Source: Duganella sp. BJB480 (GTDB taxonomy: Bacteria; Pseudomonadota; Gammaproteobacteria; Burkholderiales; Burkholderiaceae_D). Taken from it: a DNA stretch of 64,000 nt. The translations under genes were made by a program, and so were the position numbers. The stretch lies in NCBI GenBank assembly GCA_003416985.1, contig QVIN01000017.1:50354-114353 (forward strand). Direction: 5' to 3'. Numbering within the stretch: position 1 is the stretch's first letter; each line of letters begins with the position of its first letter. Below, in pieces: positions 1-24,188 of this stretch. The notes beneath the pieces are model-generated. The model saw nothing but the letters and a program-made list of their open reading frames with translations, made no database searches and had not been told where the DNA came from.

Positions 1-1331
1 CGGGATAACGGCACATAGATGAATAGTAAGGCGCCGAATAAGAAGTGGTGTGTCCATTCCTCAAAGGAGGACGATTTGCCCGTTGTGAGCTTTTGGAACT
101 CGGCATAGACGTCTGCTGATTTTTTGCGCTGGTGCAGTAACGCAGCCACTACGATTGATGCTTCCGGGAACTTCTCGTCGACAAAGTCCGTTGGCGTTAA
201 TGTGCCTGGGTTATTGCGAACCAAACCCGCATCAATGGTCTCAATCAAGCGCTTTTTGAGGGATGGCTCCTTGAGCACGCCGGCTGCAATTTCACTGATG
301 CTCACCGATGGGAGGACACGCTCCATTACCGACCGCAGTGCAGCGCGATACGATGCATTACCGCGTCGGTCGTTTAGTTTTGCCGGATCGCGCAACAATG
401 TCGGATCAATAGGGTTACCATCCAGAGAGATATTTTCCCTGATGAGTCTGAAGAAGAACAGCTCTGCAGCAAACATTTCAAAGTCATCGCCCTGCTCTTT
501 TTCGATGTCGATCGTACGAAAATCGGCTGGATCTTGAATGTATTCCGGTCCTGTGGTGCGACGATTTGGCATGCCATTGCGTTTCATGGCGACGTGGAAC
601 ACGAGCGGAGGCTGACTGAGCTTTAAAAGCGAGTTGACGAAGACTTGCTGATAATCCAAGAAGCTTTCGTATTCATCGACGAACACAGAGAATACTGATT
701 CCTTCAGATAGGGAAGCGTGTGAATAGTCTCGATTAATGCACCAATAAATGTACGAAGCGGATAGAAAATTGGTGCCGGAATCTCAGACGAGAGGTTGTT
801 GATCCAGCTTGATAATTTAAAGCGCGATTGCTTGATGTGTTTATGCATCGAGCGAAAATCTGTAGGGATAGCCGCATCAAAAGCTGCCAGGGCGGAAAAA
901 TCCAGATCTTCAAGATGCCCGTACTGGTCGGTGCGTTCGGGCGTGCAGTTGATGGTAGTCAGGCAGCCTAGCAATTCATCGGCGACCGATAAGCACAAGG
1001 CATGCTCGAAGGCCCGCTTCCATTGGACGTCATCAATGCCAGAGCCGACGAATGAGCTCAGGAACTGGATGTCGGTACGGATATACAGGCCGATTGTCTC
1101 AAATACCTCAGCAGGGAGTTCAGTGCGGTTTTTTGAGAACTGCGAATGATAAGACCAATAGCGCAGCAGCGTTGTTTTCCCGCAGCCGCGGCCGCCCACA
1201 ATGACATATGGTTTTCTGACATGCATTACCGGCAGCCGGTCGAAATATGGCGGCACTACGAAGTCGCCCCAAAGGTCAGCGCCCATCTCTTCAGCACGAT
1301 TACGGGAAAAAGCTTTGACAAGGCTACTCAT
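1..1331 (-). CDS. ORC/CDC6-like AAA ATPase of a predicted conflict system (partial, runs off left edge)
   Basis: Reading leftward from an ATG at 1331 the frame stays open for about 443 codons to the window edge, so the C-terminus is missing. A Walker A motif GGRGCGKTT lies at residues 46-54 and a Walker B-like FSVFVDEY at about 214-221. This layout resembles the ORC/CDC6-type AAA proteins that accompany PRTase-CE proteins in predicted bacterial conflict systems. It starts 2 bases after the stop of the phosphoribosyltransferase-like gene, so the two are almost certainly co-transcribed and translationally coupled. The role as an NTP-driven sensor or effector switch is inferred from family and context. 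Confidence 0.75.
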   Translation of the reverse strand, partial: MSSLVKAFSRNRAEEMGADLWGDFVVPPYFDRLPVMHVRKPYVIVGGRGCGKTTLLRYWSYHSQFSKNRTELPAEVFETIGLYIRTDIQFLSSFVGSGIDDVQWKRAFEHALCLSVADELLGCLTTINCTPERTDQYGHLEDLDFSALAAFDAAIPTDFRSMHKHIKQSRFKLSSWINNLSSEIPAPIFYPLRTFIGALIETIHTLPYLKESVFSVFVDEYESFLDYQQVFVNSLLKLSQPPLVFHVAMKRNGMPNRRTTGPEYIQDPADFRTIDIEKEQGDDFEMFAAELFFFRLIRENISLDGNPIDPTLLRDPAKLNDRRGNASYRAALRSVMERVLPSVSISEIAAGVLKEPSLKKRLIETIDAGLVRNNPGTLTPTDFVDEKFPEASIVVAALLHQRKKSADVYAEFQKLTTGKSSSFEEWTHHFLFGALLFIYVPLS

Positions 1332-1333
1332 AC

Positions 1334-2227
1334 TTATCGATCCAGAAGGGTTGTCCAGTTTTCGGTTTCATACCAATAAATCGGTAGCGTATTGTTGGGC
1401 GTGCTATGTTCAAATGCATAACACACTCCTTGCTGCTTATAGCCGAAGGGATGAACCTTTCCATTTAGAGGCATCCCAGCTTTTCTAAGCAACTCCAAAT
1501 ATTGTTCTTTCAATTGTGCGGCTACATTCGTCCGATAGCGCGAGTTGAGCCTGGTTCCGTCAAATAGGTGAAAATCGTCCGTAAGCACATCGCCGCAGAT
1601 GATTTCGACAAACGAGAAATCTCGACGAAGTATGTCGATTCCCGATTGATGTGCGGCTGCGACCAGATAAACTATCCTCAACTCTGGTCGATCCTTGTGC
1701 AATTGGCTCAGGTTACTGAGACTGACGAAATCCGAGAACTGGTCGCCGGAACCAAGGAAATCGTCGACGACGATCAGGGTCTTGACGCTCTTCGGTATTT
1801 CCGCGAATCGCTGTGGCCAGGCCAGCCAGTCGTCTTTAATGCGATACATGCGCTGCAGCAGTCGTAGCACGTAAAATCCACTCTTTGTGGGCGGCTGCTC
1901 CAGTGAAATGGCCGGCGCTAGCCGTACCCCGGGATCTTTTGACCTACTTAAAATCCCAACAAGCTCGCGGTCGTGTTGCATGTCGACGCACAATTCGGCG
2001 CATGTCATCAACGTCGACAGCATTGCCTTGAATTGTGGTTTTGATTTGAGGATCAGATTGTCCAGCAGGACCGCTCCAAGCAACTCAGCATCGTATTGTT
2101 CGAACTGGCGAATCCAGTTTGTGAGTCTTGCCTCTTCTACACTTTGCCAGATGCCTGACTGAATGAAATGATGCGCGCGATTGTGTACCTGCGAAATAAA
2201 TAAGCTCGAATCCTGTAACACACTCAT
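1334..2227 (-). CDS. PRTase-CE-type phosphoribosyltransferase-like protein
   Basis: This 297-residue protein carries a PRPP-binding-type signature LIVVDDFLGSGDQFSDF at residues 151-167, matching the hydrophobic-DD-x-x-x-SG loop of type I phosphoribosyltransferases. The N-terminal 100 residues are helical and unlike salvage enzymes. Together with the adjacent AAA ATPase it fits the PRTase-CE family described from comparative genomics as part of nucleotide-centred conflict systems. The start is an ATG preceded by AGGAAG at good spacing. The substrate is unknown; a nucleotide-modifying or nucleotide-releasing activity is an inference. It is first in a two-gene operon. Confidence 0.75.
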   Translation of the reverse strand: MSVLQDSSLFISQVHNRAHHFIQSGIWQSVEEARLTNWIRQFEQYDAELLGAVLLDNLILKSKPQFKAMLSTLMTCAELCVDMQHDRELVGILSRSKDPGVRLAPAISLEQPPTKSGFYVLRLLQRMYRIKDDWLAWPQRFAEIPKSVKTLIVVDDFLGSGDQFSDFVSLSNLSQLHKDRPELRIVYLVAAAHQSGIDILRRDFSFVEIICGDVLTDDFHLFDGTRLNSRYRTNVAAQLKEQYLELLRKAGMPLNGKVHPFGYKQQGVCYAFEHSTPNNTLPIYWYETENWTTLLDR

Positions 2228-5211: not shown

Positions 5212-5964
5212 AGTTCAGTGCAACGGAGGGTACCGGAGCCAACAAGACGCTCCCCAGCAAATTGTTTTGTTTGACTACCAGATGACCCGAGGTGGAGAAC
5301 ATCCGCGCCGGTTCCTTAAGATCGGACAGGATGGGCACTCTCGGGATACATCCACGTGGACGGCTATGCTGGTTACAACGGACTGGATGGCACCGTTCGG
5401 GTAGGCTGTATGGCGCACGTCCGCCGGAAGTTTGCTGAAGTCATCAAGTTGCTGCCAGTAGGTATCACGGGAAGCCCGACCCAGATCGCAAATGACCTCA
5501 TCGGCAAGCTCTACGAAGTTGAGCGCCGGATCAAGGGACTGGACCACCATGTCCGACACAAGGTGCGGACGGAAGAAAGCGTACCGATCCTGCAAAAGCT
5601 CAAGGGCTGGTTGGACAAGACATATCCGACAGTGGCTCCGAAATCGGCGCTTGGCCGGGCTATGAGCTATGCATTGGATCAGTGGACGGAAGTCAGCCGG
5701 CTTGTTGAGGACGGCCGCCTGTCCATCGATAACAATATCGCGGAGCGCGATATCAAATCAGTCGCCATCGGTCGGAAAAACTGGATGTTCGCGGACAGTA
5801 TGGAAGGCATGCGCGCCAGCGCAACCATGTACAGCCTCGTTGCGACAGCAAAGGCCAATGGGCTCAACCCGTTTGAGTATCTGCGATATGTGTTCGAGAC
5901 GATGCCGAAGCTGAAGACTGCCGACGAACCTGAATCGCTGTTACCATGGAATATGCCGCGATAG
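5212..5964 (+). pseudogene. IS66-family transposase remnant (C-terminal part, frameshifted)
   Basis: A first frame carries the IS66 core VLFDYQMTRGGEHPRRFL (to about 5325). A second frame then continues with SGYIHVDGYAGYNGL, GCMAHVRRKFAEV and the DDE-end region IDNNIAERDIKSVAIGRKNW through to the conserved IS66 C-terminal tail (NPFEYLRYVF). The frame change falls between about 5323 and 5340. The N-terminal half and the accessory IS66 orfs are missing, so the element is dead. The catalytic Glu is retained in NNIAERD. Confidence 0.85.
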
Positions 5965-5999: not shown

Positions 6000-6476
6000 A
6001 TGATGTTTGAACTGACACGTCAGGAATGGTTGTCACTGGCAGGCCCCAGCTTAGCGGCAGTTGTCGCTGTAGTCGGATGGCTGATTGCCCACCGGCTTAC
6101 TGTTTCACGAGACCTATCCAATAAGAGACGCGATCTAATCGCTGCGTTCTTGCTGGAGGCATATCGCCGCTTGGAAGCAGCATCAAACCGCGAGGATAAG
6201 ACCGAAGACCAAGCAATAGCTTTTGAGTCTGCCATCGCAGATATCCAACTTCTGGGTACGGTCGGTGAGATAGAGGCTATTTCTAGCTGGCTTGATGCGC
6301 ACCTCGAAAAGAGCATCGATCAGATTTTGAAGCAGCAGCGTGACGACTTGCGGCAAGAGCTGGGGCTCCAACCTATCAATTCAGCTCCGCGATTCTTCCG
6401 TTTCACGCGCGAGTATGGTAGTGGTGATTGGCAAGGTTATCCCGTTGCCCGGACAGCGACAGTCCGAGTGGACTGA
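6000..6476 (+). CDS. Small membrane-anchored helical protein
   Basis: This 158-residue protein has one transmembrane helix near the N-terminus (GPSLAAVVAVVGWLIAHRL, about 14-32). A charged helical cytoplasmic part follows (RDLSNKRRDLIAAFLLEAYRR and an acidic stretch). No family is recognised. The next gene starts 41 bases after its stop and all neighbours to 10.3 kb run the same way, which suggests a shared transcript. Such membrane-tethered helical proteins often partner with abortive-infection factors, but that is inference. Confidence 0.7.
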   Translation: MMFELTRQEWLSLAGPSLAAVVAVVGWLIAHRLTVSRDLSNKRRDLIAAFLLEAYRRLEAASNREDKTEDQAIAFESAIADIQLLGTVGEIEAISSWLDAHLEKSIDQILKQQRDDLRQELGLQPINSAPRFFRFTREYGSGDWQGYPVARTATVRVD

Positions 6477-6517
6477 AACTAAAATCGTCGGAAAGAAAGC
6501 GACGACATGGACCAAAA

Positions 6518-7297
6518 ATGAATGAGCTCGACCTGATCAAATCCATTCCACCGGAGGTTGCCAAAGCAGCCTACCATGACGCCGTATCACCGGCTCTAAA
6601 GGAAACGGGGAAAATAGGTGAGGACTTAGTGAAGACGGTTCGTCTAGTCCTCTTTCCCTTACAATATGCCGCAACTCTTCAAGATCGGCTGGCAAGGCAT
6701 TTTCAGAAGTCCATCGAGCGGGTTCCAGAGGAGCGACGGGTCGCGCCAGTGGAGTCACTAGCGCTGCCGATTACCGAGCAGCTCAGATTTCACGACGAAA
6801 AGAGCGTTGTCGGAGATATGTTCGTTAGCCTTCTGGCACGGGCAATGGATAAGGAACGCGTCGGCGAAGCGCACCCGGCGTTTGTACAGATCGTTAGCCA
6901 GCTTGCCCCCGATGAAGCCGTACTGATCCGGCAAATTGCTGGAGCCCAGCCGTCTGCATATATGCGACCACAGAAGAAGGGAGTCGCCGTTCTTTTAACG
7001 GACGAACGAGAGGCGCTGATTGGCGCTTCTGGTATGTCGGAAGATCAGAAGCGCTACCTGCAATCCGTGACGGTGCGTCCGGAAGTATTAGCGCAACCTG
7101 AATTGGTCTACACGTATATCGAGCATTTGGTGTCCTTGGGAATTGTCTCTTACACCAACGAGCCTTGGGATGCCGAGTTCAAAAACGCAAACGCATCCGG
7201 CTTTGATTTTTGGTTCGTCGCCCTAAATGGTCTTGGCGAGCTGTTTCATCGCGCCTGCCTGTCTGACGATAAAGAAACCATAGCACCAACCCTATAG
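6518..7297 (+). CDS. Abi-alpha (DUF4393)-like protein
   Basis: The start at 6518 gives a 259-residue protein. An N-terminal helical stretch EVAKAAYHDAVSPALKETGK is followed by PLQYAATLQDRLARHFQ and the segment VGDMFVSLLARAMDKER...HPAFVQIVSQLAPDEA, which is characteristic of the Abi-alpha / DUF4393 family. The C-terminal part (LVSLGIVSY and following) resembles the winged-helix-like end of that family. Members are linked to abortive phage infection. No catalytic motif is visible. It is second in a rightward run of small genes. Confidence 0.65.
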   Translation: MNELDLIKSIPPEVAKAAYHDAVSPALKETGKIGEDLVKTVRLVLFPLQYAATLQDRLARHFQKSIERVPEERRVAPVESLALPITEQLRFHDEKSVVGDMFVSLLARAMDKERVGEAHPAFVQIVSQLAPDEAVLIRQIAGAQPSAYMRPQKKGVAVLLTDEREALIGASGMSEDQKRYLQSVTVRPEVLAQPELVYTYIEHLVSLGIVSYTNEPWDAEFKNANASGFDFWFVALNGLGELFHRACLSDDKETIAPTL

Positions 7298-11447: not shown

Positions 11448-11869
11448 TTGCGCCAACTTGTCCGGTTTCGCGATGGGTTCTTCAGCGCGAAGATGGGTAT
11501 AGCGCTGCAGGATTTGCACCGACTTGTGCGTGTTGATAGCAGCTACAGGCTCTACATGGGGAGAAGTGAGGCTAGCCATGGGCTCTATTTTTCTTCCGCC
11601 TTCTTACTTCAACATCGCAGCTTCAAATTCCATGCTTCGCGGGGGATTAGTAATACGCTGGCCGTTGGAATGTCTCGATTCATGTTGTCTGCCGACTCTT
11701 TTGGGGCGTAGGCCTTCAGCGGCAAATCCAGTACGGCCACGCCTAGATGATGCTGCATCACATTGACAAGCAATGTCGCATCTAGCGGATCTGAAAGTGA
11801 CAATTCGTGAATTTTTCCTTTACGCAAGATGCTATTCTTCTTATGTTTACGCAACCAACTGTCAATCTC
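11448..11869. other. Intergenic stretch with integrase scar
   Basis: Apart from the recombinase tail at 11451-11540 no confident gene is seen. A leftward open frame of 92 codons (11609-11887) has no recognisable motif and overlaps the next gene's start, so I do not call it. Confidence 0.4.
11451..11540 (-). pseudogene. Tyrosine recombinase (integrase) C-terminal remnant
   Basis: The minus strand reads THKSVQILQRYTHLRAEEP, which matches the end of tyrosine recombinases: the GH-x-S/K stretch and the R-Y-x-H-L containing the catalytic tyrosine. The rest of the recombinase is not found upstream. This marks the site of a past integrative element between the genes at 10410 and 11870. Confidence 0.6.
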
Positions 11870-13087
11870 ATGACCAATCGGCCTCAATATCTCCAGGGGA
11901 TAGATCTCGAAGCAACCGTTCGGAAGCTAATCGCGAAGCACGAAGAACTGTTTTGGGCCGTAGCCTGGGGCTCAATGAGTTCGTTGGCAAAGCATCTGCT
12001 CAAGCATCAATCGAAGGTCAAACGCTTTGCTGTTGGCACACACTTTCATCAAACAGATCCAGACTTGCTTGAAGCACTGCAAGACGTTCCAGGGGCAAGG
12101 GTAGTGCCAAACAGTAGTGCGGGAACTTTTCATCCGAAGATTTATCTGTTTAAGTCTGGCAACGAGTTTTCGCTAGTGCTTGGTAGCCCCAATTTTACGC
12201 GTGCCGCGTTTAGTGTGAATCACGAAGCAGCGCTGTTCATTGAGGGCGTAACGTCAGATCAGCTGTTCATTGATGTTCGGGAGAGTATTGAGTCGATTTG
12301 GGATGAGGCTAAACCTATCCTCGATGGGTTCTTGCGTGCATATCGGTTAAAGTACAATGCAACACGATCAATGCGGAAAGATCTGGAGGAAGACCTTCCA
12401 ATCAATTTGCCATCTCCGAATTCAGAGTACAAAAATCTACTCGACGACAACTGGGCCGCATTTGTAGCGCGCGTCAAAGCTGACACCATTCATAACATTG
12501 AGGGGCGAGTGGCCATCATGGATCAGGCTAGAGTTTGGTTCTCGCAGATATCTCATTTTGCCGACATGACGGAAGGCCAACGTAAGGCCATCGCCGGCAC
12601 TTATGCGCGTAATGAAATTAAGCCATCAGAGGCTGGTAACCTCGATTGGGCTTGGTTCGGCTCTATGGTGGGAGCTGGCGTGTTTAAAGGATTGGTTAAG
12701 TCGAGTCCCGATAAAATAAGCGCTGCGTTGGATATGATTCCCCGCACAGGTATTGTCAACGAAACGGACTTCGAGGCATTCAAAATTAAATTCATTAATG
12801 CGTTCGAAGATTCCGAGCGTGGCGGAGGAGTTGCTACAGCTAGCCGTCTCTTAGCACTGAAGCGCCCCGACTATTTCGTGTGCGTGGACAGCGCCAACAA
12901 AAGCAAGTTGTCTGAAGCAATCGGAATCAAGATGAGCCACATAAACCTTGAGTCCTACTGGTCTCATATCATTCGCCCTTTGCTATGTAGCCCGTGGTGG
13001 AACTCTGCGCGTCCGAGTGGTGACTTAGACGGCCGAGTATGGGATTCGCGAATGGCCTGCATTGACGCTTTCTGTTACGAGCGATAG
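11870..13087 (+). CDS. Phospholipase D-type (HKD) nuclease-like protein
   Basis: The ATG at 11870 gives 405 residues. The N-terminal 150 contain FHPKIYLFKSGNEFSLVLGSPNFTR, an H-x-K...GS-x-N motif of the phospholipase D superfamily as found in restriction-type and helicase-linked nucleases. The C-terminal 200 residues are a separate domain (LDWAWFGSMVGAGVF, GGGVATASRLLALKRPDYFV) of unknown fold. A single HKD motif implies a dimeric active site. The gene stands alone next to an integrase remnant; a role in DNA restriction is inferred. Confidence 0.7.
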   Translation: MTNRPQYLQGIDLEATVRKLIAKHEELFWAVAWGSMSSLAKHLLKHQSKVKRFAVGTHFHQTDPDLLEALQDVPGARVVPNSSAGTFHPKIYLFKSGNEFSLVLGSPNFTRAAFSVNHEAALFIEGVTSDQLFIDVRESIESIWDEAKPILDGFLRAYRLKYNATRSMRKDLEEDLPINLPSPNSEYKNLLDDNWAAFVARVKADTIHNIEGRVAIMDQARVWFSQISHFADMTEGQRKAIAGTYARNEIKPSEAGNLDWAWFGSMVGAGVFKGLVKSSPDKISAALDMIPRTGIVNETDFEAFKIKFINAFEDSERGGGVATASRLLALKRPDYFVCVDSANKSKLSEAIGIKMSHINLESYWSHIIRPLLCSPWWNSARPSGDLDGRVWDSRMACIDAFCYER

Positions 13088-16680: not shown

Positions 16681-16960
16681 GCCATGCGCGATTGTAAAGT
16701 CCCCGGCGTCCGGCGGTTGGGTTCACACAGAACTGGGATTTCCACAGTGCGGCATTACCGCATCCGCCGTATAGCGTTATCAAATTTCTCAAAATTCTCT
16801 ATTCATACGCAATTATCGGCCCATAGTTGACAAAATTACTCCGGTAATCACCAATGGCTATTGAAAATTCGATACCACATCGCCACTTCAAATTTGTAAC
16901 AGGCAGTAACCAGCCAAAAGGAAATTGGGCCGTCGAGATTATCACATAACAAGGATAAAA
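16681..16960. other. Intergenic region upstream of the TIGR04141-like gene
   Basis: No gene is supported here. A consensus -35 hexamer TTGACA lies at 16827-16832 but no convincing -10 follows at normal spacing. The sequence is AT-rich near its right end, as expected for a promoter region. Confidence 0.4.
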
Positions 16961-18640
16961 ATGACCACACTGGGGAATTCAGCCATACCGGCAGCACCGC
17001 CATCCAGCGCCTTGTTGGTGTCGACCGTCGATTTATCGGTGCGTCTGCTGCATCCTGGTGTTTTGATCACGGACGTACTCAAGACTGGCCACGGCCTGCA
17101 AGTCCATCCCTGCCCAGCTGGTACGCTCTACTATCACACAACGCAACAGGAGCCGCCTGACTGGGCGAATTTCCTTGAACGCGGTGCACCAGGCATCAAG
17201 GCACAGCTGAATAGCCAACACTCGTCCGCGGTGCTGCTGCTCGAAGCCGGCCCGGCGAATGCCAAGCGTTTGTTTGCCTTCTGCTTTGGCCAAGGCCACC
17301 ATGCTGTGGAACAGGACTTCATCGAACGTCAGTTTGGCATGCGAGTCGTGCTCAACAGTGTCTCGCGTAAGGACCTGCGAGTGCTAGACAGTGCCAGCCT
17401 CGACTCGACCGTGATGCAGCGTCGCACCCAGGCTAGCCGTGAAAGCGATCTCAAGGATTTTGGCCTCGACACCCACCGTGAACTACTGCGGCTGGCATCG
17501 GGCACGCCCTCGGATACCAGTATCGCAAAGGCTGTTTCCGGCAAGGACGCGCTGCAAATCCGCAAGAAGCTTGCCTTCAACGATCTGCCCGTGTTGTGCG
17601 ATATGTTGTTAGACCTGTATAACGCGACTGACTATCTAAACGATTTCAAATTTATCGACCAGATCACCCCGGTCTACCGTGGGCAACTGACCGACGCACT
17701 CGATGATCTCGTGTTTGCCGAGCTGGAGCGCATGGTTGCTGGCGATGAATCTGAGCTGCACCTCGCTGTTCCCGACATTCTTCCTGCCGGCCCCGGCTCG
17801 GTGTTATCGTATTTTGGCGCCAATCTGCCGAGGAAGAAACAGCAATTCGAGGGTTTGTCGATCGCCGACTATGTCACCGAGCTGCAGGCTGGTGACTTTG
17901 AGTCAATTCTCAGCTTCGACGATATCCGGAATTCTCACCAGGTTAAGAGCAATAACGATGATGCTGATGCACCGTTCGGGCAATTGAAGGTGTACGACTG
18001 CATGGTGTATGAGACCAGCTACCAAAACCAGCAGTATGTCCTGTTTGACGGGCAGTGGTATAAGGTCAGTGACGATTATCACCGGGAGATCGAGCAGTAC
18101 TATCAAGAGCTTCTTAAGCCGGCATTTCTGGTCGCGTCGAGCGCAGCAAATGAGCAGGAACTGATTGCCGAATTAAGCCAGCCGTCCCATGCCGACCTGC
18201 TGTGTATCGACAAGACCAAGGTCAATCCCAGTGGTGTCACGGGGGCCAACCTAGAAGTCTGCGATTTCCTCTCACGTACTAGGCAGTTAATCCATCTGAA
18301 GGACTCCGAAACGTCTTCGCCGTTGAGCCACTTATGGAACCAGGGTTTGATTTCGGCAGAAACGCTGAAGCGCGACAGCGTTTTTCGCGCCGGTTTTCGG
18401 AGGGTTGCTGGCCGGCGCGAACGCGAGTTCGGTGTCACTGGATTTGTCGAATTGCTGCCGACGATGGGCCGCATCGTTCCTTCGGACTACACCGTGGTGT
18501 ATGGCGTACTGAAGAAAAAAGGCACCCGCTCCGGTGCGCTCGACATCCCTTTTTTCAGCAAAGTGGCACTGCGAGCGGCGGCAGACCGCATCAGCCTGAT
18601 GGGTTATCAGGTCGAACTGCATCTGATCGAAAAGCTGTGA
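16961..18640 (+). CDS. TIGR04141 / DUF6119 family sporadically distributed protein
   Basis: ATG at 16961 (AAGGA upstream) gives 559 residues. The arrangement, with an N-terminal segment HPCPAGTLYYHTTQQEPPDWANFL, then FCFGQGHH...IERQFGMRVVLN, and later QQYVLFDGQWYKVSDDYHREI, is that of the TIGR04141 / DUF6119 family. The family name reflects patchy occurrence, and members often sit in defence or mobile regions. The C-terminal VVYGVLKK...IPFFSKVALRAAADRI is also typical. Biochemical activity is not known. A membrane protein gene follows. Confidence 0.75.
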   Translation: MTTLGNSAIPAAPPSSALLVSTVDLSVRLLHPGVLITDVLKTGHGLQVHPCPAGTLYYHTTQQEPPDWANFLERGAPGIKAQLNSQHSSAVLLLEAGPANAKRLFAFCFGQGHHAVEQDFIERQFGMRVVLNSVSRKDLRVLDSASLDSTVMQRRTQASRESDLKDFGLDTHRELLRLASGTPSDTSIAKAVSGKDALQIRKKLAFNDLPVLCDMLLDLYNATDYLNDFKFIDQITPVYRGQLTDALDDLVFAELERMVAGDESELHLAVPDILPAGPGSVLSYFGANLPRKKQQFEGLSIADYVTELQAGDFESILSFDDIRNSHQVKSNNDDADAPFGQLKVYDCMVYETSYQNQQYVLFDGQWYKVSDDYHREIEQYYQELLKPAFLVASSAANEQELIAELSQPSHADLLCIDKTKVNPSGVTGANLEVCDFLSRTRQLIHLKDSETSSPLSHLWNQGLISAETLKRDSVFRAGFRRVAGRREREFGVTGFVELLPTMGRIVPSDYTVVYGVLKKKGTRSGALDIPFFSKVALRAAADRISLMGYQVELHLIEKL

Positions 18641-20522: not shown

Positions 20523-23042
<2,520 letters not shown>

Positions 23043-23081: not shown

Positions 23082-24188
23082 TTAGATACGCATCGGCATG
23101 ACGACGTACTTGAAGTCGGCATTGTCCGGGATCGAGATCAGCGCGGACGAGTTCGAATCGCCCAGCGCGACGTTGACCTGGTCGCACTTCAGGTTGTTCA
23201 ACACGTCCAGCAGATAGGTCACGTTGAAGCCGATGTCGACGCTGTCGCCGCCGTAGTCGATTTCCAGTTCTTCCACGGCCTCTTCCTGGTCCGCGTTGGT
23301 CGAGCTGATCTTCATGCTGCCCGGCGTGATGATGCAGCGCACGCCCTTGAACTTATCGCTGGTCATGATGGCGGCGCGTTGCAGCGAACGCAGCAGCTCA
23401 TCGCGGCCGATCGTGAATTCGTTCTTGTAGCCTTTCGGGATCACGCGCGTGTAGTCGGGGAACTTGCCCTCGACCAGCTTGGAGATCAGCTCGATGTCGG
23501 CGAAGGTCAGCTTGACCTGGTTGGCGGCGATGTCCAGCTGCACGGTCTCGTCGTTCTCTTCCAGCAGGCGCTGCAGTTCGATGATGGTCTTGCGCGGGAT
23601 GATCACTTCCTGGCGCTCGAACGATTGCTCGGTCTCGACCTGGCAGAACGCCAGGCGGTGGCCGTCGGTGGCCACGGCGATCACGTTCTTGCCGTCCAGG
23701 ACCAGCAGCAGGCCGTTCAGGTAGTAGCGGATGTCCTGCTGCGCCATCGAGAAGTGCACCATGTTGAACAGGTGCTTCAGCGTCTTCTGCGGCAAGGTGA
23801 CGGAGGCGCTGTAGCTCTCGGCCTGCTGCACGGTCGGGAACTCCTCGGCGGCCAGGGTCTGCAGCGCGAAGCGCGACTTGCCGGTCTGGACCGTCAGGCG
23901 CTTGTTCAGCAGCGTCATCGTCACGTCGCCCGATTCAGGCAGCGCGCGCAGGATGTCGAGCAGCTTGCGCGCGGCCACGGTGGTGCCGGTCACTTCGCTG
24001 CCGGAGCCGATCTCGGCGTTGGTGGTGATCTGGACTTCCGTGTCGGTCGACAGGAAGGATACGCTCTCGCCCTCTTTGCGGATGAGGATATTGGCCAGAA
24101 TCGGCATAGTGTGCCGACGCTCGACAATACCGCTCACGATCTGCAGTGGCCGGAGAAGGGTATCTCGGGTGGTTTTGACCAATTGCAT
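23082..24188 (-). CDS. dnaN: DNA polymerase III beta sliding clamp
   Basis: This 368-residue protein is the usual length for the three-domain clamp that holds polymerase III on DNA. It starts MQLVKTTRDTLLRPLQIVSG and ends with the typical YVVMPMRI, both characteristic of beta clamps. GAGGA lies 6 bases before the ATG. It sits 105 bases downstream of dnaA and is transcribed with it. Confidence 0.98.
   Translation of the reverse strand: MQLVKTTRDTLLRPLQIVSGIVERRHTMPILANILIRKEGESVSFLSTDTEVQITTNAEIGSGSEVTGTTVAARKLLDILRALPESGDVTMTLLNKRLTVQTGKSRFALQTLAAEEFPTVQQAESYSASVTLPQKTLKHLFNMVHFSMAQQDIRYYLNGLLLVLDGKNVIAVATDGHRLAFCQVETEQSFERQEVIIPRKTIIELQRLLEENDETVQLDIAANQVKLTFADIELISKLVEGKFPDYTRVIPKGYKNEFTIGRDELLRSLQRAAIMTSDKFKGVRCIITPGSMKISSTNADQEEAVEELEIDYGGDSVDIGFNVTYLLDVLNNLKCDQVNVALGDSNSSALISIPDNADFKYVVMPMRI

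Follow-up and report, generated by a model that had tools for sequence, protein, structure and literature searches.

The window considered here is a stretch of 64,000 nucleotides from Duganella sp. BJB480 (contig QVIN01000017.1, positions 50,354 to 114,353; labelled C8 in a genome of 7.27 Mb). It begins inside an operon containing genes of a phosphoribosyltransferase (PRTase), an ORC/CDC6-like AAA ATPase, a protein of the CARF6 family and an N6-adenine methyltransferase. The PRTase gene and part of the ATPase gene lie in the window; the rest of the operon, which spans about 5 kb, was read from the stretch to the left on the same contig (locus L002, base 12355 of which is base 1 of the window).

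Genes of the operon

The PRTase and ATPase genes are separated by 2 bp, the start of the CARF6 gene overlaps the stop of the ATPase gene by 4 bp, and the methyltransferase gene is convergent to that of CARF6, their tails overlapping by 17 bp (Table 1). Since a promoter scan (3 sites vs. a shuffle mean of 6.0) and a terminator scan (6 vs. 6.6) gave no excess over shuffled sequences, co-transcription rests on the gene overlap and the conserved gene order.

The PRTase matches the Pfam family PRTase-CE (PF24390) with 156.1 bits at a cut-off of 27, residues 36-297 being aligned to positions 2-253 of the 253 profile positions. Its loop of the phosphoribosyl pyrophosphate (PRPP) type, VVDDFLGSG, is intact, and D155, D156 and G161 are shared by all 57 aligned homologues. 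The ATPase, whose C-terminus was missing from the window and was obtained from the same genome, matches as a full protein the family ORC-CDC6-like (PF24389) with 345.8 bits, also at a cut-off of 27, over positions 2-571 of 571. Six of the eight positions of its Walker A motif, GGRGCGKT, are identical in 58 of 58 sequences, C50 is found in 56, and position 47 is occupied by G in 45 and by K in 13; the Walker B pair D219-E220 is present in all 58. Residues G46, R48, G49, G51, K52, T53, D219, E220 and E222 are invariant. Sequences of unusual length, containing X, originating from L002 or L009-L012, or at least 90% identical to one already kept were excluded from the alignments. Accordingly, the initial annotation, which described a PRTase-like protein with an intact PRPP loop followed immediately by an AAA ATPase with Walker A and B motifs, is borne out for both proteins by the comparison with these families.

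The third protein has no Pfam match, and was assigned to CARF6 by the PADLOC model PDLC01920 (1.8e-71 over nearly the whole length); this family presumably goes back to a CARF census of 2020. A sequence search of solved structures gave nothing credible for CARF6 (a single match, E 0.34) and no match for the ATPase. The AlphaFold2 model of CARF6, based on a 56-sequence alignment, has a pLDDT of 92.4 and resembles Cam1, Card1 and Csm6 with a Foldseek probability of 1.00 and a TM-score of up to 0.59 of the Cam1 target; the matches with the lowest E-values were unrelated proteins with a root-mean-square deviation (rmsd) of about 16-24 Å, and were set aside. By this model, CARF6 has a CARF-like fold. 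Residues D31, Y111, E113, P114, Y117, G162, R167, P190, P248, K252 and P253 are invariant in 56 of 56 sequences, and most of them are located at or just past the ends of the predicted strands E106-117, E156-161, E182-189 and E244-249, which would be the place where Rossmann-type folds bind ligands.

In the methyltransferase, N102, P103 and P104 of the NPP motif are invariant in 57 of 57 sequences. The catalytic part resembles M.TaqI, M.BseCI and HsdM in a search with the family profile, and the C-terminal half gave weak matches to specificity subunits of type I systems.

The genome containing the window shares 95.1% DNA identity with Duganella levis (L013) over 13,296 aligned bases that include the operon, and D. 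levis is therefore a close relative of the host. Synonymous and nonsynonymous differences between the two number 13 and 3 for PRTase, 38 and 1 for ATPase, 42 and 8 for CARF6, and 32 and 6 for methyltransferase, with ratios of nonsynonymous to synonymous substitution rates (dN/dS) of 0.06, 0.01, 0.05 and 0.06, respectively. Purifying selection acts on all four genes.

Conservation and exchangeable components

Similarity to the ATPase or CARF6 yielded 75 loci: 67 from a collection of species genomes and three from viral contigs, both searched with an alignment of the ATPase alone, together with L002 and four plasmid loci. Every open reading frame (ORF) of these loci was then scanned with profiles of PRTase, CARF6 and methyltransferase built from five seed loci. 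The PRTase gene adjoins the ATPase gene in 74 of the 75, and in the remaining one, L019, the contig begins inside the ATPase gene. CARF6 was found in 70 loci, the contig ending inside the ATPase gene in the other five. Methyltransferase was found in 69; the other six (L028, L034, L060, L066, L075 and L077) run into a contig end on one or both sides of the operon and therefore do not demonstrate its absence. Wherever all three genes are present, the order PRTase-ATPase-CARF6 is kept on one strand. In L027 and L081, PRTase is split into two frames and was left so. Near-copies occur among the loci, 66 of which are representatives with less than 90% ATPase identity.

The initial annotation proposed a two-gene conflict system. 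The tight coupling of PRTase and ATPase, including their joint presence elsewhere, stands, and the conflict-system reading is the likeliest; but the system is not a two-gene one, because PRTase-ATPase-CARF6 is a constant unit across the loci, accompanied by methyltransferase as described above, and the CARF6 and methyltransferase genes are situated beyond the window edge. The pair represents a fragment, truncated by the window edge, of a larger modular family.

Named hosts of the loci belong to Pseudomonadota, Bacteroidota, Planctomycetota, Thermodesulfobacteriota and Campylobacterota; an Acidobacteriota metagenome-assembled genome (MAG; L019) and a methanogen MAG (L075, 23% identity) are assigned by name only. 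The distribution of the operon is patchy: PRTase-CE is present in 6 of 60 genomes, PF24389 exceeds the cut-off in 14 of 398 genomes of the phylum, and the CARF6 subfamily model matches 2 of those 398, the window's own genome being counted each time. ATPase relatives were found in 150 PLSDB plasmid records, 135 of them typed as conjugative and 130 from Klebsiella. Copies nearly identical to the Klebsiella operon were also detected in E. coli, in 4 of 5426 genomes and always on plasmids of conjugation-type strains (L012 is a plasmid record). The operon is also present in many chromosomal-looking contigs of named isolates.

The methyltransferase slot of the operon, METHYLTRANSFERASE, is a module. 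Of the methyltransferase genes of 65 loci, 27 are downstream and convergent, 21 precede the operon on its own strand, and 17 follow it on that strand. The gene is usually adjacent, but five loci have it 1.1-1.6 kb downstream and L052 has it 2.8 kb upstream. On the ATPase tree, a quick tree without bootstrap, 8 changes of this position are required, where the possible minimum is 2. L059 and L064, with two methyltransferase matches each, were excluded from the tree and from the table of pairs. The ATPase, PRTase and CARF6 of L045 and L071 are 78%, 69% and 70% identical, and the corresponding parts of their methyltransferases are unrelated (19% and 25%); for L021 and L022, the values are 69%, 66% and 62%, with unrelated methyltransferase parts (23% and 28%). 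When all pairs among the 65 loci are taken, the identities of CARF6, PRTase and methyltransferase correlate with ATPase identity at 0.93, 0.89 and 0.75, respectively. In relatives within Duganella, the same slot contains an N6_N4-type enzyme (G031, locus L125) and a C5-cytosine enzyme (G029, locus L128). Exchangeability of this kind would be expected of an enzyme whose task is to mark DNA, whichever mark it makes.

Thirteen other genomes exceed the PF24389 cut-off, and 12 neighbourhoods (L113-L124) were read; G416, over the cut-off only together with its neighbours, was left out. A CARF6-type neighbour was found by profiles in 8 of the 12; L120, L122, L123 and L124, whose ATPases match with 86.6, 40.9, 32.7 and 29.1 bits, respectively, gave no CARF6 match. 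PADLOC CARF6 models match 10 of the 10 proteins tested (L075, L114, L115, L117, L118, L119, L125, L128, L142 and L143). Methyltransferase, PRTase, ATPase and CARF6 occur together in L113, L125, L128 and the 75-locus set; C5 methyltransferase, HD-CE (PF24391, in the place of PRTase), ATPase and CARF6 in L114, L142, L143 and L144, with L117 having C5 genes more than 3 kb away; a HAD protein, PRTase, ATPase and CARF6 in L118, L119 and L121, with PfkB in L119 and L121 and not found in L118; and a metallophosphatase, ATPase and CARF6 in L115 and in the matching L116 of another genome of the same genus. The constant core of the wider set is ATPase and CARF6, and the enzyme slot, to judge by family names, is filled by different nucleotide- or phosphate-active enzymes. 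The HAD/PRTase loci may represent a small nucleoside pathway beside a CARF sensor.

Other arrangements were also observed. PRTase-CE forms the end of a 610-aa protein in L126, a 1239-aa ATPase relative in L120 is located between two genes resembling C5 methyltransferases, and the ATPase relative of L124 lies beside a methyltransferase of the window-type family (1e-100).

Genomic setting

The neighbour survey covered 1257 ORFs of at least 90 aa within 5 kb of the ATPase-bearing operons of 66 loci. Among the 14 largest clusters listed were those of a helix-turn-helix protein (12 loci), a dUTPase_2 protein (8 loci) and, in four loci each, a second helix-turn-helix protein, a protein that resembles an IS3 transposase by eye and a 578-aa P-loop protein. 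No recurring nuclease was identified among these 14 clusters. The helix-turn-helix protein of L002, a possible regulator, has relatives in 7 of the 75 loci, L002 included.

The dUTPase_2 assignment was confirmed by Pfam for both proteins tested (L038, 3.1e-25; L026, 2.9e-19). The gene was found in L025, L026, L032, L038, L040, L060 and L076, and also in L071, either upstream of PRTase or downstream of CARF6. Seven of the 8 copies share the strand of the adjoining PRTase or CARF6 gene and lie at most about 55 bp away from it. Such a close association might point to a link with uracil or dUTP.

About 4-8 kb beyond the ATPase gene, a trio of genes resembling TnsC/TniB, TnsB and TnsA was found, of which only TniB exceeds its Pfam cut-off (86 bits), TnsA and TnsB being matched below theirs. 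A Tn7-like element may carry the operon as cargo. The G+C content is 48-54% in the first 20 kb of the window vs. 60-74% in nearly all of the remainder. The low-G+C stretch ends beside gyrB and dnaN, recognised by eye, and seems to be an island inserted next to gyrB. Genes for Abi_alpha, a PLD-like protein and DUF6119 were found in it, a context like that of a defence island, together with an ORF judged by eye to resemble a fragment of an IS66-type transposase.

Table 1. Positions of genes and other features of the operon, its surroundings and related loci (window coordinates unless a locus is named)
Feature	Position	Strand	Remarks
PRTase-CE gene	1334-2227	minus	complete, ATG start, 297 aa; first gene of the operon
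ORC-CDC6-like AAA ATPase gene	1-1331; whole gene L002:11721-13685	minus	654 aa, of which 443 aa inside the window
CARF6 gene	L002:10822-11724	minus	300 aa; outside the window
N6-adenine methyltransferase gene, TaqI-like	L002:9621-10838	plus	405 aa; N6_Mtase 2.3e-09; outside the window
Helix-turn-helix protein gene	L002:9181-9561	minus	126 aa; HTH_3 22.8 bits, cut-off 23
TnsC/TniB, TnsB, TnsA-like gene trio	L002:3804-7743	minus	outside the window
Low-G+C stretch with adjoining gyrB and dnaN	1-24188
IS66-type transposase-like ORF	5356-5964
Abi_alpha gene	6428-7297		113.6 bits
PLD-like gene	11807-13087		weak match, under cut-off
DUF6119 gene	16925-18640		439 bits
gyrB	20523-23027
dnaN	23082-24188
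610-aa protein ending in PRTase-CE	L126:7071-8903
Large ATPase relative	L120:7494-11213

Proposed function and alternatives

According to PMC12839542, the BREX ATPase BrxC belongs to the ORC/Cdc6 clade and works with a methyltransferase; as described there, BREX shares with the operon an ATPase of this type and an N6-adenine methyltransferase, with no obvious nuclease. The operon differs in its small methyltransferase, which scores 17.5 bits with the model of the BREX-1 enzyme (NF033452; cut-off 500) and is accordingly not of the PglX type; in the addition of CARF6 and PRTase; and in the lack of a PglZ match among the four operon genes in general profile scans, the genome itself not having been searched for PglZ. 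Type I and type II restriction-modification systems are similar in the kind of catalytic part, the weak specificity-subunit matches and the exchangeability of the methyltransferase, but no recurring nuclease partner appeared among the neighbour clusters listed. The window PRTase is not a member of DS-32 (NF053875), a PRTase-like protein named anti-phage by NCBIfam, to which it scores 12.4 bits vs. a cut-off of 250. A PRTase is mentioned in a figure legend of the DefensePredictor article (PMC13092281), and general background is given in PMC7159879, PMC4012209, PMC5512222, PMC8195603 and PMC9503650. No description of the four-gene system was found among the matches listed in the literature search. 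The gene linkage may already be in print, because the proteins have attracted notice before, as is evident from the PADLOC CARF6 models and from three consecutive Pfam accessions; the accessions PF24389-PF24391 suggest that one study named the families together.

In the reading favoured here, held with moderate confidence, the locus would be a four-gene defence operon that is licensed by methylation and resembles restriction-modification, a sensor-switch and a nucleotide-active enzyme taking the place of the nuclease. The methyltransferase, an N6-adenine enzyme by homology, would mark a short sequence in host DNA. The ORC/CDC6-like ATPase, with its intact nucleotide-binding motifs, would assemble on unmarked foreign DNA, alone or together with the methyltransferase. 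CARF6, with its CARF-like fold and invariant residues, would form a ligand-gated regulator with the ATPase. The PRTase, once released, would use PRPP or nucleotides through its conserved loop to halt the growth of phage, probably sacrificing the cell. Such a substrate, an effector role and toxicity are predicted for the PRTase because the PRTases of type III-A retrons are homologous and because HD and metallophosphatase enzymes replace it in relatives. According to PMC12548924, transformation of E. coli with the retron Ppe1 did not succeed, and the authors presume that this retron is toxic. The defence reading is favoured by the fixed gene order, the frequency of the methyltransferase in the loci and its exchange, the invariant catalytic residues and purifying selection, as well as by the retron homology, the swapped PRTase slot, the dUTPase_2 neighbour, the conjugative plasmids and the nearby Abi_alpha.

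Several results weigh against this reading. The ATPase model has no Foldseek match at E 0.001 or better; its better-scoring weak matches are ORC and STAND proteins (Drosophila ORC 7jgr, probability 1.00, E 0.0049, rmsd 17 Å; the STAND protein MalT, probability 0.99). Methyltransferase exchange is exceptional among close relatives: where ATPase identity is at least 0.69, it was found in 2 pairs out of 28, the other 26 keeping a related enzyme (45 of 192 pairs are listed). Methyltransferase was found in 3 of the 8 remote neighbourhoods with CARF6, and none was detected by profiles in the stretches read of L118, L119 and L121 (HAD/PRTase) and of L115 and L116 (metallophosphatase). Finally, Bpu1, the other type III-A retron tested, gave no defence against the panel used in PMC12548924.

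CARF domains bind cyclic oligoadenylates made by Cas10. The genes for such signals were searched for in 36 hand-picked host genomes, 33 reached through the loci and the others being G000, G029 and G031, with no matched control set. Csm1-type Cas10 exceeded the cut-off in none of the 36 (four sub-threshold matches, at most 24.1 bits), Cmr2 not having been searched; SMODS cyclase exceeded it in six, with the window's own genome borderline at 29 bits, other CD-NTase families not having been searched. Csm1 was used as the Cas10 test because PF22335 is uninformative: it matches in 26 of the 36 hosts, 18 over the cut-off with a maximum of 38.5 bits, a control E. coli also exceeds the cut-off, and in our judgement the matches look like GGDEF proteins. 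A constant supply of cyclic oligonucleotides from Cas10 or CD-NTase systems is unlikely in most hosts. That CARF6 answers cyclic oligonucleotides supplied by another system of the cell, CRISPR type III or CBASS, would agree with its family membership and with the six SMODS-bearing hosts; nevertheless, 30 of the 36 have no SMODS match over the cut-off and Csm1 is lacking throughout, within the families covered, and we regard this as very improbable.

A local source of the signal is attractive in view of the same survey. The PRTase, or the HD, metallophosphatase or HAD/PfkB enzyme in its place, might make or trim a nucleotide-like signal that is bound by CARF6, and the CARF6-ATPase complex on foreign DNA would then act as the executor, for instance through a block to replication that involves no cleavage, an outcome like that of BREX. 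CARF proteins are ligand sensors by family, the HAD/PRTase class, with PfkB in two of its three loci, resembles a small nucleoside pathway, and CARF6 and ATPase are what remains constant in the wider set. However, the HD and metallophosphatase classes have no PRTase by profiles, so the source of the signal would vary by class, the operon would be left without a known killing domain, and the cyclase survey extended to Csm1 and SMODS and not to Cmr2 or other cyclases; this explanation is possible though unlikely. Classical restriction-modification systems can act as addiction modules, and the operon could likewise be a selfish element maintaining plasmids or islands, with methyltransferase as the antidote and PRTase-ATPase-CARF6 killing cells that lose it. 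The many plasmid records, mostly conjugative, agree with this, but the operon is also carried by many chromosomal-looking contigs, and addiction alone does not explain the CARF6 gene. We consider it improbable as the main role, and addiction and defence are not mutually exclusive.

The PRTase matches the five PADLOC PRTase_III-A models listed (best 2e-25), and in G004, a genome of the same genus, genes for PRTase-CE and a reverse transcriptase are neighbours (L127) in what is likely a type III-A retron, so that the genus would hold both kinds of PRTase system. A remnant or variant of such a retron in the operon is nevertheless extremely unlikely and was rejected: beyond the homologous PRTase, there is no reverse transcriptase at the locus, the only such match of the genome (RVT_1) being on another contig, C11; no Rfam match reached the gathering score in the 16-kb L002, although Rfam may lack this type of retron non-coding RNA; and the partners are fixed and of other kinds. 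An ordinary nucleotide salvage or regulatory PRTase, for which the PRPP loop and weak matches to uracil PRTases and PyrR in solved structures (best E 0.0067) might speak, was likewise rejected, with next to no probability left to it, on account of the patchy distribution and the constant ATPase and CARF6 partners. The absence of a salvage-enzyme context noted in the initial annotation was upheld by these findings.

Beyond the defence reading itself, a further and more doubtful proposal is that the family is a branch of CARF signalling independent of Cas10 and CD-NTases, in which unmarked DNA would trigger the ORC-like ATPase, the PRTase would build a PRPP-derived nucleotide and CARF6 would sense it, with no nuclease, and with the methyltransferase and the enzyme slot exchangeable on a fixed ATPase-CARF6 core.

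The operon looks like a possible way to recognise and stop foreign DNA. If this is true, it would join the marking of DNA known from restriction-modification and BREX, CARF ligand sensing of CRISPR and CBASS, and PRTase effectors of type III-A retrons, which are usually studied apart; and a compact operon would make testable together the action of retron-type PRTases and the ligand that a CARF protein binds where the cell has no recognised Cas10 or CD-NTase.

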